A stretch of DNA of 44,418 nucleotides from positions 1-44,418 of IMG/VR virus record IMGVR_UViG_3300037193_002602. One strand, written 5' to 3'. The notes beneath the pieces are model-generated. The model was not told the DNA's origin. It saw only the letters and a program-made list of their open reading frames with translations, and searched no databases. Source of the DNA: a virus. Shown piece by piece: positions 2,645-44,418 of this stretch. Both the position numbers and the translations under genes were made by a program. Positions within the stretch are counted from its first letter, which is position 1. Each line of letters starts with the position of its first letter.

Positions 2645-2963
2645 GTGAGGCCTCCTTGCATTGGTCTGCGCCGACCTCGGCGAGCGACGCGACGCAGTGG
2701 TGCTCGAGCGGCTGCGTGCAGCAGGCCTCGCACACCAGCAGTTCGACGGCCGGCCCGATGGGCTGGGTGACGTCGTCGATGCCGGTCATCACCTCGGCGA
2801 GCTTGAAGTTACCGAGCAGGTGCGTGACGCCTTGCAGCTGCCGCAGCTTCCGGGCATTGATGCCGTGCCGTTGGATCGTCAGCTGCCAAAAGAGGGGCAC
2901 GCCTGACTTGCATACCGGCTTGCCGCACAGGCCGCATGGGCGCATGAGATCGTGGTTGTTCAT
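2628..2963 (-). CDS. Cysteine-rich hypothetical protein (111 aa)
   Basis: ATG at 2963 overlaps the TGA of the ParB-like gene (2960-2962) as ATGA. Two cysteine groups, CGLCGKPVC near residues 11-19 and CEACC near residue 87, suggest a metal-binding protein. A middle helix contains NARKLRQLQGVTHLLGNFKLAEV. No family is recognised with confidence. It belongs to the block of accessory genes directly after the DGR and ParB-like gene. Confidence 0.55.
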   Translation of the reverse strand: MNNHDLMRPCGLCGKPVCKSGVPLFWQLTIQRHGINARKLRQLQGVTHLLGNFKLAEVMTGIDDVTQPIGPAVELLVCEACCTQPLEHHCVASLAEVGADQCKEASHAHAG

Positions 2964-4867
2964 GGCCGCGCTCCCTTCGTCGGAAACGGCCAGGCCACCA
3001 CCGGCTCGGGCATCTTGGCGGCCGGCGTCGCGCTGGTGACCTCGAACTCGGACAGCTTGCGGCCGTCGGCTAGGGCCACCTTGAGCCACTTGGGTTGCAG
3101 GCCGCGGCCGCTCCAGGCTTGGCCGGTCATCGGGTCGCGGTAGCGAACGGGAGCCTTCGGCTGCTCCACCGCCTTGGCCAGGGCCTGCTCGGGCGTGCGG
3201 GCTGCTTGTGCGGCCTCGTGGCGCGCGGTGTCCACGGTGCTGATGGCCTGCTTCTTGATCGGCGCCAGGTCGAGATCGAGCTCGCTGGCGATGCTTTCGA
3301 TGTAGAGCGGGTCGCCCTTGTTGGGGTGGTCGTTCTCGCGTGCGTTGAGGTCGATCAGCGCGGTGACGTAGGTGAGCAGGTTGCGCACCTGGTTGTCGGT
3401 CATGGTGACCACCACCTCGTCGGCGCGCAGCTGGTCGCGCATGACCATCGCCTCGCTGAGCTCGATCTGCCCGATGGCGCGGATGCGCTCGACGCTCACG
3501 TCGGTGTTGAGCAGCACGTCGACCAGCAGGATGCGCAGCACCGAGTCGGGCATGCCCTGGTCGGTGCCGTCGTTGAGGCGGGCCCACAACGCATCGGCCG
3601 CCCGGTTGCGCCACTCGCGCTCGATCTCGACCAGGCGCTCGGCCGCACGATCGGCCTTGCCTCGAGCTTCGCTCGCGGCAGCCGCGTCAGCGGCTGCTTC
3701 GTGGGTCTGTTCTTTCTTCTTCGGCTGCTTGGGGGGCTTGGGCTCGCGCTGCAGGAGCTTCTTGTTCTTCAGCGCGAGGGTGGCGGCGTCTTCGCGAACG
3801 ACTTCGATGAGGTCGTGCGTCTTGGGATCTTCAAGCAAGGCCACCGGCGGGCCCCCGTCCCTCAATAGGGATCGCAATGGCTGTGAGCTGGTCGCTTTGG
3901 GGTGTGGTTTATCCAGCGGGAGGTAGCCCTTGAGTTCCGAACTCTCGGCCGGCTTGACCACGCGCGCCGCGGCGCCGGTGATGACCTCGCGGCCCTCGGC
4001 CTTGGCCTTGGCCACCAGCTGCTCGAAGTGCGCGGCCTTCTTGGCGGCGAAGCAGGGCGGGTCGGTGCACACGTCCTCGCTCTTCACGTCTTCGAAGAGG
4101 CCTGGGCTCGCGCCGGTGCGCTTGGGGCAGGCGGTGCAGCTGCCGCACTGGGGCAGCAGCTCGGTGCTGGTGACCGAGAAAGGCGCATGCGCGAGCTGCA
4201 GCATGTAGGCCTTCTCGATGTGGGCCTGGGCCTCGCGGAAGCTCATGGGCGTGCCGCCGTAGCCCTGCACCACGTCTTTGGTGGCGGCGGGCTGCAGGCC
4301 GGCCGGCATGCGTGCGATGAGCTGCGCGATCGCGATGCCGATCTTGTCGGCATACACGGCCTGGCGGGCCTCGGTGCACAGGTGGCACAGGTTGAGGCGG
4401 GCGCGCACGAAGCTCACGCTCTTGCCCAGGCGCGCGGCCAGCTCTTCGAGCGTATAGCCCTGCAGCTCGTCGGGCTTGCGCAGCAGCTTCTGGTAGCCCT
4501 CGGCGGCCTCGAGCGGATGCACTTCCTCGCGCTGGTCGTTCTCGATGATTTGGATCTCGAGCACCTGGAAGTCGGTGAGCTCGCGCACAAGCACCGGCAC
4601 GAAGTCGAGGCCGGCGATCTCGGCCGCCAGCCAGCGGCGCTCGCCGGCGACGATCTCGTGCGTGGGCTGGCCGTCCTGCGGTTCGGGCACGGGCCGCACG
4701 ATGATGGGCGAGATGATCCCGTGTTCCTTGAAGCTCTCGGCCAGCTCCTCGAGCGTCTGCTTGCGCTTGGTGTGGCGCGGGTTGGTGGGGCTGGGGCGCA
4801 GCAGCGTGCGCGGCAGGTGCGTGAACTGCGGATCGGTGGTGGTGGCGGTGGCCAGCACAGCGCTCAT
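2960..4867 (-). CDS. ParB/Spo0J-like protein (635 aa)
   Basis: The N-terminus contains the ParB signature: LLRPSPTNPRHTKRKQTLEE, then the GERRWLAAEI motif (about residues 75-84) and ENDQREEVHPLEAAEGY (about 109-125), which correspond to the CTP-binding motifs of ParB-type CTPases. A helix-turn-helix follows (LEELAARLGKSVSFVRARL). A cysteine-rich segment follows (CGSCTACPKRTG, then CTDPPCF), as in ParB proteins of plasmid-type PRTRC systems. The C-terminal half is long, charged and helical. No ParA gene is visible, so partitioning is unlikely; a regulator or nuclease-like role is more plausible. Its ATG overlaps the reverse transcriptase stop as ATGA, tying it to the DGR transcript. Confidence 0.85.
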   Translation of the reverse strand: MSAVLATATTTDPQFTHLPRTLLRPSPTNPRHTKRKQTLEELAESFKEHGIISPIIVRPVPEPQDGQPTHEIVAGERRWLAAEIAGLDFVPVLVRELTDFQVLEIQIIENDQREEVHPLEAAEGYQKLLRKPDELQGYTLEELAARLGKSVSFVRARLNLCHLCTEARQAVYADKIGIAIAQLIARMPAGLQPAATKDVVQGYGGTPMSFREAQAHIEKAYMLQLAHAPFSVTSTELLPQCGSCTACPKRTGASPGLFEDVKSEDVCTDPPCFAAKKAAHFEQLVAKAKAEGREVITGAAARVVKPAESSELKGYLPLDKPHPKATSSQPLRSLLRDGGPPVALLEDPKTHDLIEVVREDAATLALKNKKLLQREPKPPKQPKKKEQTHEAAADAAAASEARGKADRAAERLVEIEREWRNRAADALWARLNDGTDQGMPDSVLRILLVDVLLNTDVSVERIRAIGQIELSEAMVMRDQLRADEVVVTMTDNQVRNLLTYVTALIDLNARENDHPNKGDPLYIESIASELDLDLAPIKKQAISTVDTARHEAAQAARTPEQALAKAVEQPKAPVRYRDPMTGQAWSGRGLQPKWLKVALADGRKLSEFEVTSATPAAKMPEPVVAWPFPTKGARP

Positions 4868-6057
4868 GCGGTGAGCTCCTTTCGGTAGGTCTTGGTGAGG
4901 TCGGACTTGACGCAGCGGCCACGGCGCCGGAGCAGGTTCGCGAAGCGAGCCAGATTGGCGTGGCTGTGGGTGGCCTGGCGCAGCAGGCCGAAGTAGCTGT
5001 TGGCGGTGTGGAACAGATCAGCCGCCGGCGCCTGGGCCGTGCGCTGCATGACGGCCTCCACGGTGCGCGCGCGCGTGGTGCGGCGCCACGGCTTGATGAC
5101 GTGCCCGACGAAGTCGATGCCCCGTGCGACCGGTTGGAGGATGGTCTTGCGCGGGTTCAGCTGCAGGTGCAGCTCAGCGAGGCGATGCGAGATCCCGGCG
5201 AGCGCCTGGCCGAGCCATTGGGCGCTGGGGTGCAGCAGCACCATGTCGTCGACGTAGCGCACGTAGTGCGGCGCGCCGATGCGGTGCTTGACGTACTGGT
5301 CGAGCCCGTCGAGCAGCACGTTCGCAAAGAACTGGCTGCTGAGGTTGCCGATGGGTAGGCCGTGGTCGGCCGGTGCGTTGAAGAGTCTCTTGTGCGGGGG
5401 CACGAGCGCCAGCTCGCGGCGGCTGCCCTGAAGCTCCACGTCGTGCCGCGGGTCGTGCATCAGGATGGTGGTGGCCAGCTGCATCCACCACGGCTCGGTC
5501 ACCCGCTGCTGCAGCTGGGCCAGCAGGATCTGCTTGTCGATGCTGACGAAGAAGTTGGCGAGATCGCACTTCAGGTAGCTCGCCGGCCGGCTCCAGTTGT
5601 GCGTGACGCTGCGCACCTGGTGCTCAAGGCGGCGGGCTGCGTAGAGCGTGCCGCGGCCCGGAATGCAGGCGCAGCTGTCGGCCACGAAGGCGGCATGGAA
5701 GCGCGGCGCGATGCGGTTGTAGAGCAGGTGGTGGACGATGCGGTCGCGGAACTGCGCCGCCCACACCTCACGCGGCCGGGGGCGCGTGACGACAAAGCAG
5801 ATCGAGGTGCCGGGCCGATAGGCGCCGCTGGCCAGCTCCTCGTGGAGCTGGAAGAGGTTGTGCTCGACGCGGGCCTCGAAGGCTTGGGCGCTGGCGCTGT
5901 TGCGCTTGTTGCGCCGGCAGTCGAGGTAGGCCTGCACGAGCAGGCAGAACAGGTCGGAATCTGCGGACGGCTCGGGCGCAGCCCTCGTAGCTCTTGTGGT
6001 TGTTGTTCTGGTTGCCGTTGTTGAAGTTGCAGTTCCAGGCGTAGGAGGCGTACCCAT
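4864..6057 (-). CDS. DGR reverse transcriptase
   Basis: Reverse transcriptase that copies TR RNA into mutated cDNA for the three variable repeats. From ATG 6057 it is 397 aa. Motif A is DLANFFVSID (D165); motif B is GLPIGNLSSQFFAN (residues 233-246), with the IGxxxSQ signature characteristic of DGR enzymes; the catalytic box is YVRYVDDMVLL (YVDD at 268-271). LNPRKT and GIDFVGH follow. The start is unclear: the first 32 residues from 6057 are simply the TR read in another frame (T/A/R-rich) and are not RT-like. Conserved sequence begins at DLFCLLVQAYLDCRRNKR, just after the TR, where no ATG is available, so a GTG or CTG start there, or a TR-encoded N-terminus, are both possible. An upstream ATG at 6261 would lie within avd. 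It is followed by the ParB-like gene with an ATGA overlap. Confidence 0.95.
   Translation of the reverse strand: MGTPPTPGTATSTTATRTTTTRATRAAPEPSADSDLFCLLVQAYLDCRRNKRNSASAQAFEARVEHNLFQLHEELASGAYRPGTSICFVVTRPRPREVWAAQFRDRIVHHLLYNRIAPRFHAAFVADSCACIPGRGTLYAARRLEHQVRSVTHNWSRPASYLKCDLANFFVSIDKQILLAQLQQRVTEPWWMQLATTILMHDPRHDVELQGSRRELALVPPHKRLFNAPADHGLPIGNLSSQFFANVLLDGLDQYVKHRIGAPHYVRYVDDMVLLHPSAQWLGQALAGISHRLAELHLQLNPRKTILQPVARGIDFVGHVIKPWRRTTRARTVEAVMQRTAQAPAADLFHTANSYFGLLRQATHSHANLARFANLLRRRGRCVKSDLTKTYRKELTA
5963..6050 (-). repeat. DGR template repeat (TR)
   Basis: This 88-bp segment is the master copy of the three variable repeats. On the minus strand, in the target frame, it encodes WNCNFNNGNQNNNHK followed by SYEGCARAVR: a run of AAC codons, the typical layout of a TR made to be diversified at adenines. 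It holds 25 adenines on that strand. Compared with VR1, VR2 and VR3 it differs at 10, 10 and 8 sites, all of them adenines, and matches at all 63 other sites. It lies between avd and the conserved RT core, inside the 5' end of the RT frame. Confidence 0.96.
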
Positions 6058-6224
6058 CGCGCTATCAACGTCACCCGGCCGAAGGCGGCTGCCGATCAGC
6101 GTGGCGACTTCACCGGACGCAGCCCGCACCGAGGCGGCGGTCTCCGTGGTGTGCCTGTCGGTGGCCTCGTGGGCCAGCGGCGCGACCAGATTCACTGTGC
6201 GCACGGGCATGTGGGCCTTGACCG

Positions 6225-6587
6225 TCATGCTGCAGGCGCCCTGTTCGCTGTCTTGAGCCATCCACCGGCCTGCTTGCCGATGCTGCCCAGCAGCTCGATC
6301 GACTCAGCCCACAGCTTGGGCGAGAGGTATCGGCTGTCGTGCCCCACGCGCAGCAGCACCGTCACGGCGCGCTGCCGGGTGAGCAGTTCCTGGATGTGCC
6401 CGGCCCGCACGTCGCGTTGCGTCGCGTTGGCCAGCGCCATCAGGTCCAGCATCTCGACGCAGTGCTGGGTGATCTTCTCGCCCAGGATGCGCTTGATGCT
6501 GCGGGGCATCTGTTCCTGCACCTTCACGGCCAGGGCGAGCAGGCGCACGCCGGTGCGATAGATGGGCAGGTCGGTGTGGATCGCCAT
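6225..6587 (-). CDS. avd: Avd-like DGR accessory protein (120 aa)
   Basis: Accessory variability determinant, a small basic four-helix-bundle protein that forms a pentameric barrel, binds RT and TR RNA and is needed for mutagenic retrohoming in the Bordetella phage DGR. The protein is almost entirely helical: YRTGVRLLALAVKVQEQMPR, then IKRILGEKITQHCVEMLDLM, a third helix ending AGHIQELLTRQRAVTVLLRV, and KLWAESIELLGSIGKQAGGWL. The helix-PRSIKRILGEKI pattern is typical of the Avd / 23S rRNA-intervening-sequence protein fold. Length and position between a VR gene and the TR match known DGR loci. Confidence 0.9.
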   Translation of the reverse strand: MAIHTDLPIYRTGVRLLALAVKVQEQMPRSIKRILGEKITQHCVEMLDLMALANATQRDVRAGHIQELLTRQRAVTVLLRVGHDSRYLSPKLWAESIELLGSIGKQAGGWLKTANRAPAA

Positions 6588-6603
6588 GTGGCGGCTCAGA
6601 TCA

Positions 6604-6629
6604 AAAGGATTGAAGGACCGAAGGACTCA
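6604..6629 (-). repeat. Post-VR motif, copy after VR1
   Basis: A related but longer element with the CCTTC box twice (TCCTTCGGTCCTTCAATCCT) right at the stop of target gene 1 and before avd. Confidence 0.5.
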
Positions 6630-7091
6630 GACCCTGCGGACGGCTCGGGCGCAGCCCTCGTAGCTCTTGCGGGTGCTGTACTGGCCGCCGTAGTCGAAGT
6701 CGCAGCTCCAGGCGTAGGAGGCGTCGCTCTCGTACATCTCGCCTGACCAGTGCCAGTCGGCCTGCATGTGCGGCTTGCAGTTCGCGAACAGAAGTGCCTG
6801 TTCTTGGCGTGTGGGGAGTTCGCCGCCCACGCTGGCAGCCCAGTCCACCGCGGCTCGCCACTCGAGCTTGGTGGTGGGCTTCTCTGCCATGAGCACCAGG
6901 TGGTGCTTCACCTCGCCGTGTTCGTCGAGCACCGCGCCGGCGTAGTGTTCGCCTTCGTGCAGCTCGATCTCGGTGTATTCCAACTGCACCAGCGTGGTTG
7001 ACGGCGCAGGCTCTTGCCTGGCCAGCTGCTCGATCATGGCGGCCAGCTCGCTTTGCTTGGCCACCACGGCTTCCAACGTGATCTCTGTCAT
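6627..7091 (-). CDS. DGR target protein 1 (C-type-lectin-like, DUF1566-type; contains VR1)
   Basis: This 154-aa protein ends in variable repeat VR1. The N-terminus (about residues 1-30) is a short helical or coiled-coil segment (AVVAKQSELAAMIEQLARQ) absent from the two paralogues. The core has the DUF1566 / C-type-lectin pattern: LEWRAAVDWAASVGGELPTR, then LLFANCKPHMQADWHWSGE. The variable segment is WSCDFDYGGQYSTRK, followed by invariant SYEGCARAVR near the C-terminus. No signal peptide is seen. ATG 7091 has AAGGAG upstream. In known DGRs this fold displays the variable residues on a ligand-binding face; the ligand here is unknown. Confidence 0.88.
   Translation of the reverse strand: MTEITLEAVVAKQSELAAMIEQLARQEPAPSTTLVQLEYTEIELHEGEHYAGAVLDEHGEVKHHLVLMAEKPTTKLEWRAAVDWAASVGGELPTRQEQALLFANCKPHMQADWHWSGEMYESDASYAWSCDFDYGGQYSTRKSYEGCARAVRRV
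6636..6723 (-). repeat. DGR variable repeat VR1
   Basis: This 88-bp repeat of the TR lies at the 3' end of target gene 1. It differs from the TR at 10 positions, all at TR-strand adenines, and changes 9 codons. Identity extends two further bases on its 3' side (6634-6635). On the 5' side it stops shortly after the ASYAW codons. Confidence 0.95.
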
Positions 7092-7105
7092 GTCGGTGTG
7101 CTCCT

Positions 7106-7126
7106 TGAAAGAATTGAAGAATCAAA
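7106..7126 (-). repeat. Post-VR motif, copy after VR2
   Basis: Same element as at 7530-7550, overlapping the stop of target gene 2 and running into the ribosome-binding region of target gene 1. Confidence 0.6.
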
Positions 7127-7514
7127 CGCCCAGGTGAATCAGGCGGACGGCTCGGGCGCAGCCCTCGTAGCTCTCGTGGTTGGTGAGCTGGTAGCCGTCG
7201 TAGAAGTAGCAGTACCAGGCGCAGGAGGCGCTGGACTCTTCGTTGGTCCAGTGCCAGTCCTCCTCGAACTGAGCCTTGGCATTGGCGTAGAGCAGCGCGG
7301 CGACGGGGCGCGAAGGCAGCTGCCCGCCCACCTTGTCGGCCCAGTTCATGGCCTGCTTCCAGGTGAGGCGTTCACCGGGCTTCTCTTCGAGCAGCACCAC
7401 GGCGTGGTGCTGGCCATCGGGCGTTGTGGTGACACCGTAGAACGTGCCAGCATCGAGCGGCTGGCCGATGGCTGGCAGGTTGGCGAAGGTGGTGTTCATG
7501 GCTTGCGCATGCAT
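7122..7514 (-). CDS. DGR target protein 2 (C-type-lectin-like; contains VR2)
   Basis: A 130-aa paralogue of the neighbouring targets. It shares FANLPAIG, GVTTTPDG, VLLEEKPGE, NWADKVGGQLPSRPVAALLY and EDWHWTNEES, then the variable stretch WYCYFYDGYQLTNHE and SYEGCARAVR. The start could be ATG 7514 (AAAGG upstream) or ATG 7499, which aligns better with paralogue 3. It lacks the N-terminal coiled segment of target 1. No signal peptide or membrane segment is visible. The gene lies 30 bases upstream of target 1 on the same transcript. Confidence 0.88.
   Translation of the reverse strand: MHAQAMNTTFANLPAIGQPLDAGTFYGVTTTPDGQHHAVVLLEEKPGERLTWKQAMNWADKVGGQLPSRPVAALLYANAKAQFEEDWHWTNEESSASCAWYCYFYDGYQLTNHESYEGCARAVRLIHLGV
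7143..7230 (-). repeat. DGR variable repeat VR2
   Basis: This 88-bp match to the TR at the 3' end of target gene 2 has 10 substitutions, all at TR adenines. It is the only VR that also changes the tyrosine codon before AWN (Tyr to Cys) and the lysine after the H codon (Lys to Glu). Confidence 0.95.
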
Positions 7515-7529
7515 GGTTGTGAGGCCTTT

Positions 7530-7550
7530 CGAAAGGACTGAAGGATCAAA
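7530..7550 (-). repeat. Post-VR motif, copy after VR3
   Basis: A stop-proximal element following VR3; it matches the element after VR2 (7106-7126) in 17 of 21 bases and shares the CCTTCA-TCCTTT core with the one after VR1. It is absent after the TR. Confidence 0.6.
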
Positions 7551-7953
7551 CGCTGAGCGGAATCAAGCGGACGGCTCGGGCGCAGCCCTCGTAGCTCTTG
7601 TGGTTGCTGAACTGGCCGCCGTCGTTGAAGTAGCAGTACCAGGCGTAGGAGGCGTCGAACTCTGTCCCGGTCCAGTGCCAACGCGTGTCGTCGATCTGCT
7701 CGCGCAAGTTGGCGTAGAGCAGCGCGCTTTCGGCGCGTGATGGCAGGCGCGCACCGGCGCCGAGACCCTCGGCCCAGGCTTTGGCGTTCGCCCAATTCAT
7801 GAGGTTGGCGGGCTTGTCGGGGAGGAGCACCAGGTGGCCGACCGGGTATCCGTCGAGACCGCTGGTGACGCCTGCATAGATGCCGCCTTCGAAGGTGGTG
7901 CCTGGCACGGCCGGCAAGTTGGCGAGGGTGATGGCAGCGACGGTTTCAGACAC
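7546..7953 (-). CDS. DGR target protein 3 (C-type-lectin-like; contains VR3)
   Basis: GTG at 7953 is chosen because AGGAG lies 8 bases upstream and the resulting 135-aa protein aligns with target 2 from its first residues (ITLANLPAVPG; IYAGVTSGLDGYPVGHLVLL). The core reads LPSRAESALLYANLREQ and RWHWTGTEFDASYAW, then the variable stretch WYCYFNDGGQFSNHK and SYEGCARAVRLIPLSV. It is the first of the three targets in transcription order and overlaps by 8 bases the end of an upstream membrane-protein gene, so its translation is probably coupled. No export signal is seen. Confidence 0.88.
   Translation of the reverse strand: MSETVAAITLANLPAVPGTTFEGGIYAGVTSGLDGYPVGHLVLLPDKPANLMNWANAKAWAEGLGAGARLPSRAESALLYANLREQIDDTRWHWTGTEFDASYAWYCYFNDGGQFSNHKSYEGCARAVRLIPLSV
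7567..7654 (-). repeat. DGR variable repeat VR3
   Basis: This 88-bp match to the TR at the 3' end of target gene 3 has 8 substitutions, all at TR adenines. It shares several changed codons with VR2 (both read WYCYF), which could reflect recent gene duplication after diversification, or parallel change. Confidence 0.95.
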
Positions 7954-10282: not shown

Positions 10283-10756
10283 TCAGTAGCCCCACTCCAC
10301 CATGAGGTGGACGACGTGGGTGCCTCGCTTTTCGAGCTTGGGCAGGTAGGCGATGCGCGGGCGCACCGGGCTGCCGTAGCGGCCCAGGTCGAGCGCCAGC
10401 GATGGCACCACCAGCGGCAGCACCGCGGCGCGCTCGTAGCCGGTGATGGCGCCGAGCGTGATGTCGGCGTGCAGCGGGCCCGCCAGCTGCACGCCGGTGG
10501 TCCAGCCGGCGTAGACAGACCAGCGCCGGATGCTGTTGCGGTAGAAGCCGGCGGTGATGCCGTCGTCGGTGCGCACGTAGGCGCCGGGGTTGGCGTTGCT
10601 GTAGTCGTGCGCCGGCAGGTGGCGGCTGGCCAGGTGCAGGCCGATTGCACCGATGCGACTGTTCGGCGGCTGTGCCACGGCCGGCAGCGCGAGCAGCACG
10701 GCCGAGGCCAGGGCGACGAGCAGGGTGGCCAGTGTGCGCAAGGCGGCGGTGCTCAT
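10283..10756 (-). CDS. Exported, outer-membrane beta-barrel-like protein (157 aa)
   Basis: A clear signal peptide (LATLLVALASAVLLALPAVA, likely cleaved after AVA-Q near residue 28) precedes about 128 residues of alternating beta-strand character: IGAIGLHLASRHLP, GAYVRTDDGITAGFYRN, WSVYAGWTTGVQLAG, VVPSLALDLG and a final HLMVEWGY. The NSxxRxSxYAG pattern is shared by a family of small phage- and plasmid-borne exported proteins. The aromatic C-terminus is typical of outer-membrane barrels. It could alter the host surface after infection; that role is an inference. It overlaps the upstream gene as ATGA. Confidence 0.65.
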   Translation of the reverse strand: MSTAALRTLATLLVALASAVLLALPAVAQPPNSRIGAIGLHLASRHLPAHDYSNANPGAYVRTDDGITAGFYRNSIRRWSVYAGWTTGVQLAGPLHADITLGAITGYERAAVLPLVVPSLALDLGRYGSPVRPRIAYLPKLEKRGTHVVHLMVEWGY

Positions 10757-44274: not shown

Positions 44275-44418
44275 GCGCCCAGCCCCTGCCAGGGATTCGC
44301 GCCGCCGAACTCTCTGCGCACCTCCCCTCGCTTGATCTTGCAAACGGTGGACAGGTGCAGTCCATAGCGCTTCGCCAAAACCGGACCTGGCTCGTCGCTG
44401 GCGAAGATCGCGCGGGCG
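44271..44418 (-). CDS. HNH-like / HTH protein, C-terminal part (5' end cut at window edge)
   Basis: Second appearance of the gene that crosses the junction: the coding strand reads ARAIFASDEPGPVLAKRYGL, then STVCKIKRGEVRREF and ends GLGA-stop at 44271. Its 5' part lies at 142-497. Confidence 0.75.
   Translation of the reverse strand, partial: ARAIFASDEPGPVLAKRYGLHLSTVCKIKRGEVRREFGGANPWQGLGA
44278..44418. repeat. Terminal direct repeat, copy 2
   Basis: Identical to 1-141; marks the closing of the circle. Confidence 0.95.

Follow-up and report, generated by a model that had tools for sequence, protein, structure and literature searches.

The window, by which we mean the whole stretch of DNA analysed (an IMG/VR virus record of 44,418 bases), almost certainly carries a diversity-generating retroelement (DGR) of the Avd-containing phage type, in which a single template repeat (TR) is matched by variable repeats (VRs) in three adjacent lectin genes. 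The layout is unusual, as a conserved RNA structure, the Rfam orphan family RT-15, is placed before the template and not after it. An earlier note on this DNA had proposed a complete DGR with three VR-bearing targets on a temperate phage, and the parts of that proposal are all present: the TR and VRs, the accessory variability determinant (Avd), the reverse transcriptase (RT) and the phage genes. All DGR elements are found on the minus strand within 4864-7953, in the single direction that the note had described, and are transcribed in the order holin-like gene, T1, T2, T3, avd, RT-15 RNA, TR, RT and ParB-like gene (Table 1). We propose that an RT-Avd complex would copy the TR RNA with random misincorporation opposite adenines, and that the cDNA would replace the 3'-terminal VR in any one of the three lectin genes, guided by the GC-rich 3' end common to the repeats. 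The eight AAC codons of the TR would set the main variable residues and would never yield a stop. The lectins may be exposed on the virion or the lysogen and there bind ligands that vary on the host surface.

Table 1. Features of the retroelement and of the gene preceding it in the window
Feature	Position	Strand	Evidence
Holin-like gene	8227-7946	-	profile search
T1, DGR target 1, C-type lectin (Lcl_C/DUF1566-like), 135 aa	7546..7953	-	ORF; weak Pfam Lcl_C match (4.5e-6, below cut-off); fold match
VR1 of T1	7567..7655	-	8 of 26 A positions changed from TR, none of 63 non-A
T2, DGR target 2, lectin protein, 130 aa	7122..7514	-	phrog_4245; 52% identity to T1
VR2 of T2	7143..7231	-	11 of 26 A positions changed from TR, none of 63 non-A
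T3, DGR target 3, lectin protein, 154 aa, extra N-terminal helix	6627..7091	-	44-45% identity to T1/T2
VR3 of T3	6636..6724	-	10 of 26 A positions changed from TR, none of 63 non-A
Avd, accessory variability determinant, 120 aa	6225..6587	-	PF22296 3e-12, over cut-off; phrog_3206 8e-23; NF033474 1.4e-11
RT-15 RNA (RF03018), structured 5' leader of template RNA	6050..6241	-	144.2 bits (gathering 82), E 2e-35; covariation in 15 relatives
TR, 89 bp, 26 adenines	5963..6051	-	only copy whose A positions account for every VR difference
DGR reverse transcriptase	4864..5937 (GTG at 5937 is the shortest likely start)	-	phrog_1423 2.6e-110; DGR clade

Repeats, Avd and reverse transcriptase

Both strands were searched for segments in which no more than 20 of the 63 non-A positions differ from the TR, and exactly three other copies were found in the window, each with zero non-A mismatches. 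These copies lie in the three paralogous C-type-lectin-like genes that had earlier been described as ending in a repeat (in T1, the VR spans residues about 100-129 of 135, i.e. the 3' end of the gene); the repeat itself measures 89 bp rather than the 88 bp first given. Across VR1-VR3, 29 of the 78 TR adenine positions differ, and the chance of all mismatches landing on A is 2e-5 for VR1, 2e-7 for VR2 and 1e-6 for VR3. The adenine changes are concentrated in the eight AAC codons of the TR: the translated TR reads ASYAWNCNFNNGNQNNNHKSYEGCARAVR, VR1 (T1) reads ASYAWYCYFNDGGQFSNHKSYEGCARAVR, VR2 (T2) reads ASCAWYCYFYDGYQLTNHESYEGCARAVR and VR3 (T3) reads ASYAWSCDFDYGGQYSTRKSYEGCARAVR.

The RT contains the two sequence motifs expected of it from the earlier note (as IGNLSSQ and YVDD), and its closest match in the PDB is 8ub7 (Reverse transcriptase, 328 aa, the same length as BPP-1 bRT). 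RT phylogeny had been set beforehand as a possible refutation of the DGR assignment. In a maximum likelihood tree, the window RT lies inside the DGR clade, with the RTs of BPP-1, BalMu-1, VP58.5, Lagaffe and ANMV-1, and the DGR RTs are split from group II intron and RT-Cas1 enzymes at an SH-aLRT of 100; the program flagged long branches and we make no claim on the deeper order. Avd was matched in three libraries, by Pfam bAvd (PF22296), PHROG Avd and NCBIfam DivGenRetAVD (NF033474), the last below its cut-off, and a sequence search of the PDB with Avd gave no match.

The start of RT is uncertain, as its open frame, ending at 4864, extends back across the TR as far as 6261, with alternative starts at 6057, 6129, 6210, 6228 and 5937, and the TR ends 26 nt before the shortest of these (5937). 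Among the members of the clade, most have no ATG, GTG or TTG between TR and RT, and in many the only start codon is inside or upstream of the TR. Read-through of the TR into RT is therefore possible. A translated N-terminal extension of RT, encoded by the spacer and the TR, was considered and rejected although most clade members keep the frame open: codon positions 1, 2 and 3 vary at 0.24, 0.28 and 0.28 in the spacer, stops are not rarer than column shuffling gives when loci with stops are counted, and the conserved part of the spacer is RNA (RT-15) instead of protein. As the spacer is without codon periodicity, an upstream RT start, if used, would add an unconstrained leader. At two related loci (L058 and L061), an insert separates TR from RT, and RT there has its own ATG. 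The insert at L061:6290-6805 has a frame, judged by eye to be methyltransferase-like, that is continuous with the one running through the TR, the insert at L058:6310-6600 is short, with an open frame between RT-15/TR and RT, and an insert of ~1.9 kb is found between RT-15/TR and RT at L066:2012-3949. For the RTs of L013 and L018, interruption by an intein or intron was considered and rejected, since tblastn gives one continuous RT.

These data bear on two other explanations of the repeats. The three targets are paralogues with 44-52% identity, and could have arisen by ordinary gene duplication, with recombination maintaining the likeness of the repeats and no retroelement mutagenesis involved. 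Such an origin is practically untenable, as the repeats match the TR at 63 of 63 non-A positions in all three VRs and differ at adenines, a pattern which already refutes it; moreover, RT, Avd and TR adjoin the repeats, and the same pattern is seen in relatives. More weight, albeit still little, can be given to a DGR relic, whose VRs record past mutagenesis and whose RT has ceased to be expressed or active: the window reads AGG where the upstream ATG is conserved, there is no ATG between TR and RT core, and a bacterial genome (L131) contains a decayed cassette of the same clade that lacks RT. We nevertheless regard a relic as improbable, given that all ORFs are intact, the catalytic motifs are present, no VR carries a non-A mismatch and RT has the other possible starts listed above.

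RT-15 and the template RNA

The 192-nt interval between avd and TR is a full-length match to RT-15, above the gathering score; the earlier note makes no mention of this structured RNA. RT-15 was found at the same place in 21 of the 22 relatives tested, the exception being L082, and was above cut-off in six of 301 genomes of the putative host family; five of these six matches adjoin an RT. The sixth (L131, G144:C1) belongs to the decayed cassette in a bacterial genome, in which RT-15, avd and two targets are present and RT is absent. The structure is supported by consensus folding of 15 sequences, with strong covariation: 28 of 61 predicted pairs have at least one compensatory change, nearly all inside RT-15. 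Upstream of one related DGR, two type II hammerhead ribozymes were observed (L069:2651-2731 and 3464-3529).

The DGR of BPP-1 shares with the window the order VR-avd-TR-RT, the A-specific differences between TR and VR and a C-type lectin target, although its RT is only 30% identical to the window RT. Unlike the three targets of the window, BPP-1 has one large target (Mtd) in the tail-fibre region, and instead of RT-15 it has a 144-nt spacer (RF03022, Phage_DGR) between TR and RT. According to PMC12875486, this spacer adopts a fold, brings in RT-Avd and contains the adenine used for priming, and cDNA synthesis is stopped by a motif in the adjoining end of avd. Among the sequences tested, a match to RF03022 was obtained in BPP-1 only. 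A structured spacer of the BPP-1 type was not found between TR and RT in the window, where the TR abuts the RT coding region, and across the clade 8-21 codons separate the end of the TR from the first conserved RT motif. Given this proximity, the priming RNA may be contained in the RT gene, RT-15 may take over its task from the 5' side, or RT-15 may act solely as a cDNA terminator. A 3' spacer hidden in the early RT codons was considered and set aside: fourfold-site variability in the first 45 codons is 0.36-0.42 compared with about 0.45, and the predicted pairs are few and mostly invariant, both of which are weak signals. The slight conservation at fourfold sites leans weakly against such a spacer.

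We tentatively suggest, as a possible rather than a probable arrangement, that the clade uses a rearranged template RNA, in which RT-15 at the 5' side replaces the 3' spacer of BPP-1 in RT-Avd recruitment or cDNA priming and frees the TR to abut RT, with many members starting RT upstream of or inside the TR. If this is true, the orphan RT-15 is the core RNA of a class of DGRs. The link to DGRs gives the RT-15 family a likely function, and raises the question of whether the priming RNA of a DGR must lie 3' of the template. The Rfam output for RT-15 (RF03018) carries no DGR label, whereas in the window the match falls exactly between avd and TR. In the open literature searched, the original RNA paper aside, no link between RT-15 and DGRs was found, and the role of RT-15 as leader of the template RNA of this DGR class seems not to have been stated; it may nevertheless be known.

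Related cassettes and turnover of the variable repeats

DGRs, multi-target DGRs, overlap of TR and RT and a relative of the present element have all been published previously. The relative is the DGR of Burkholderia phage Magia (NC_070954; PMC7883833), whose RT is of the same clade (64% amino acid identity) and which also has Avd, RT-15 RNA and a TR abutting RT. Its two short lectin targets are adjacent and their VRs have changed at A positions only, compared with three targets in the window; Magia is a myophage, whereas the window phage is probably siphophage-like. DiGReF (2012) lists 19 two-VR, 2 three-VR and 3 four-VR DGRs, and defines its group 3 by a TR overlapping the 5' end of the RT ORF (PMC3521204). 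The classes share with our element a TR running into the RT frame and several VRs per TR; they are annotation-based, and the description consulted does not include an RNA between avd and TR.

A scan of IMG/VR for related RTs gave 80 loci, and the cassette is kept in these, in Magia and in Pseudomonas and Shewanella phages. A-only repeats were detected in nearly all 80 loci with a purpose-written TR/VR finder. Among the 78 loci with a target, counting the window and the named phages, 67 have two adjacent targets, six have three (the window, L022, L024, L037, L040 and L084) and five have one, some of the latter being cut by contig ends or flank limits. The earlier note had taken one target to be usual, but multi-target DGRs are not rare and two targets are the norm in this clade. 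Two deposited phage records that state different hosts, OK094664.1 (Shewanella) and OP650936.1 (Tenericutes zrk29), are both 47,902 bp with equal match values, and are probably one phage.

The earlier note had also called for relatives that share a TR but not their VRs, and these were found among sister pairs, with differences at TR adenines. In L063/L064, which have an identical TR, 16 of the 28 A positions differ in each VR, against 1 and 2 of the 74 remaining positions, and the flanks are identical at 148 of 150 and 142 of 150 bases. The pairs L059/L062, L070/L073 and L075/L079 likewise combine an identical TR with differing VRs, and L025/L047 has one TR difference and a similar VR pattern; over the five sister pairs, 10-18 TR-A positions and 0-4 others differ per VR. 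The remaining pairs with the same TR are identical throughout and are probably the same phage. For the window phage, an exact pattern scan of IMG/VR revealed no instance of the same TR with a different VR, and no near-identical genome was found in IMG/VR. As no contig with its TR pattern was found, the activity of the window element itself is inferred, VR turnover being seen in relatives only. One template diversifying three lectins, together with natural sister pairs showing VR turnover and the common two-target versions, provides good material for studying why several lectins are diversified in phages.

Lectin targets and phage context

The AlphaFold models of T1 (pLDDT 90) and T3 (pLDDT 87; a helix at 6-25 followed by the lectin fold) both have the Legionella Lcl C-terminal lectin domain as best fold match (for T1, 8q4e is the top PDB match, at 4e-6), followed by many C-type lectins, and the best viral fold matches of the targets include DUF1566 proteins of phages. 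The gp4 protein of EBPR siphovirus 1 (L010:4941-5315), encoded near the record end, is homologous to T1/T2 (42-50% identity); no RT was found near it within the stretch fetched. Receptor binding by T1-T3 is suggested by analogy to Mtd. The three proteins are lone lectin domains of 130-154 aa, encoded outside the tail operon and with no evident virion-attachment domain, which counts against display of the DGR products on the virion. They could instead work on the bacterial side, as lectins on the lysogen surface or secreted, and not as phage receptor-binding proteins; the location of the cassette on the minus strand with holin-like, ParB and PagP-like genes, away from the plus-strand tail genes, and the bacterial surface lectin Lcl as closest fold match, are both in keeping with this. 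We consider a bacterial-side role somewhat unlikely, as a signal peptide or anchor is not evident in T1-T3 (judged without a dedicated predictor) and the target cassette occurs mainly in phage contigs.

The window is a complete, circularly closed map of ~44,277 bp (44.3 kb), the closure being indicated by a 141-bp direct terminal repeat at 1-141 and 44278-44418. Profile searches identified the gene set of a tailed temperate phage (integrase, repressor, terminase, portal, capsid and tail genes), including an S24-type repressor, a CII-like activator, a DnaB-like helicase, HK97-type head genes and, among the plus-strand tail genes, a tape measure, a central tail fibre and a baseplate hub. From these genes, the phage is temperate and probably siphophage-like. 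The window RT is 72% identical to RTs in Ottowia and Pseudacidovorax genomes, and the capsid protein (up to 73%) and terminase (62%) are similar to proteins in genomes of the putative host family, so that the host probably belongs to the Burkholderiales. The two genomes with the closest capsids (G101 and G080) gave no RT match at a threshold of 1e-60, which points to the cassette being an accessory module. Directly downstream of RT is encoded a ParB-like protein with a C-terminal H-NS DNA-binding domain (2960-4867, minus strand; Pfam 1.9e-13), and the phage also carries a PagP-like lipid A acylation protein (10283-10756, minus strand; phrog_3600, 4e-11).
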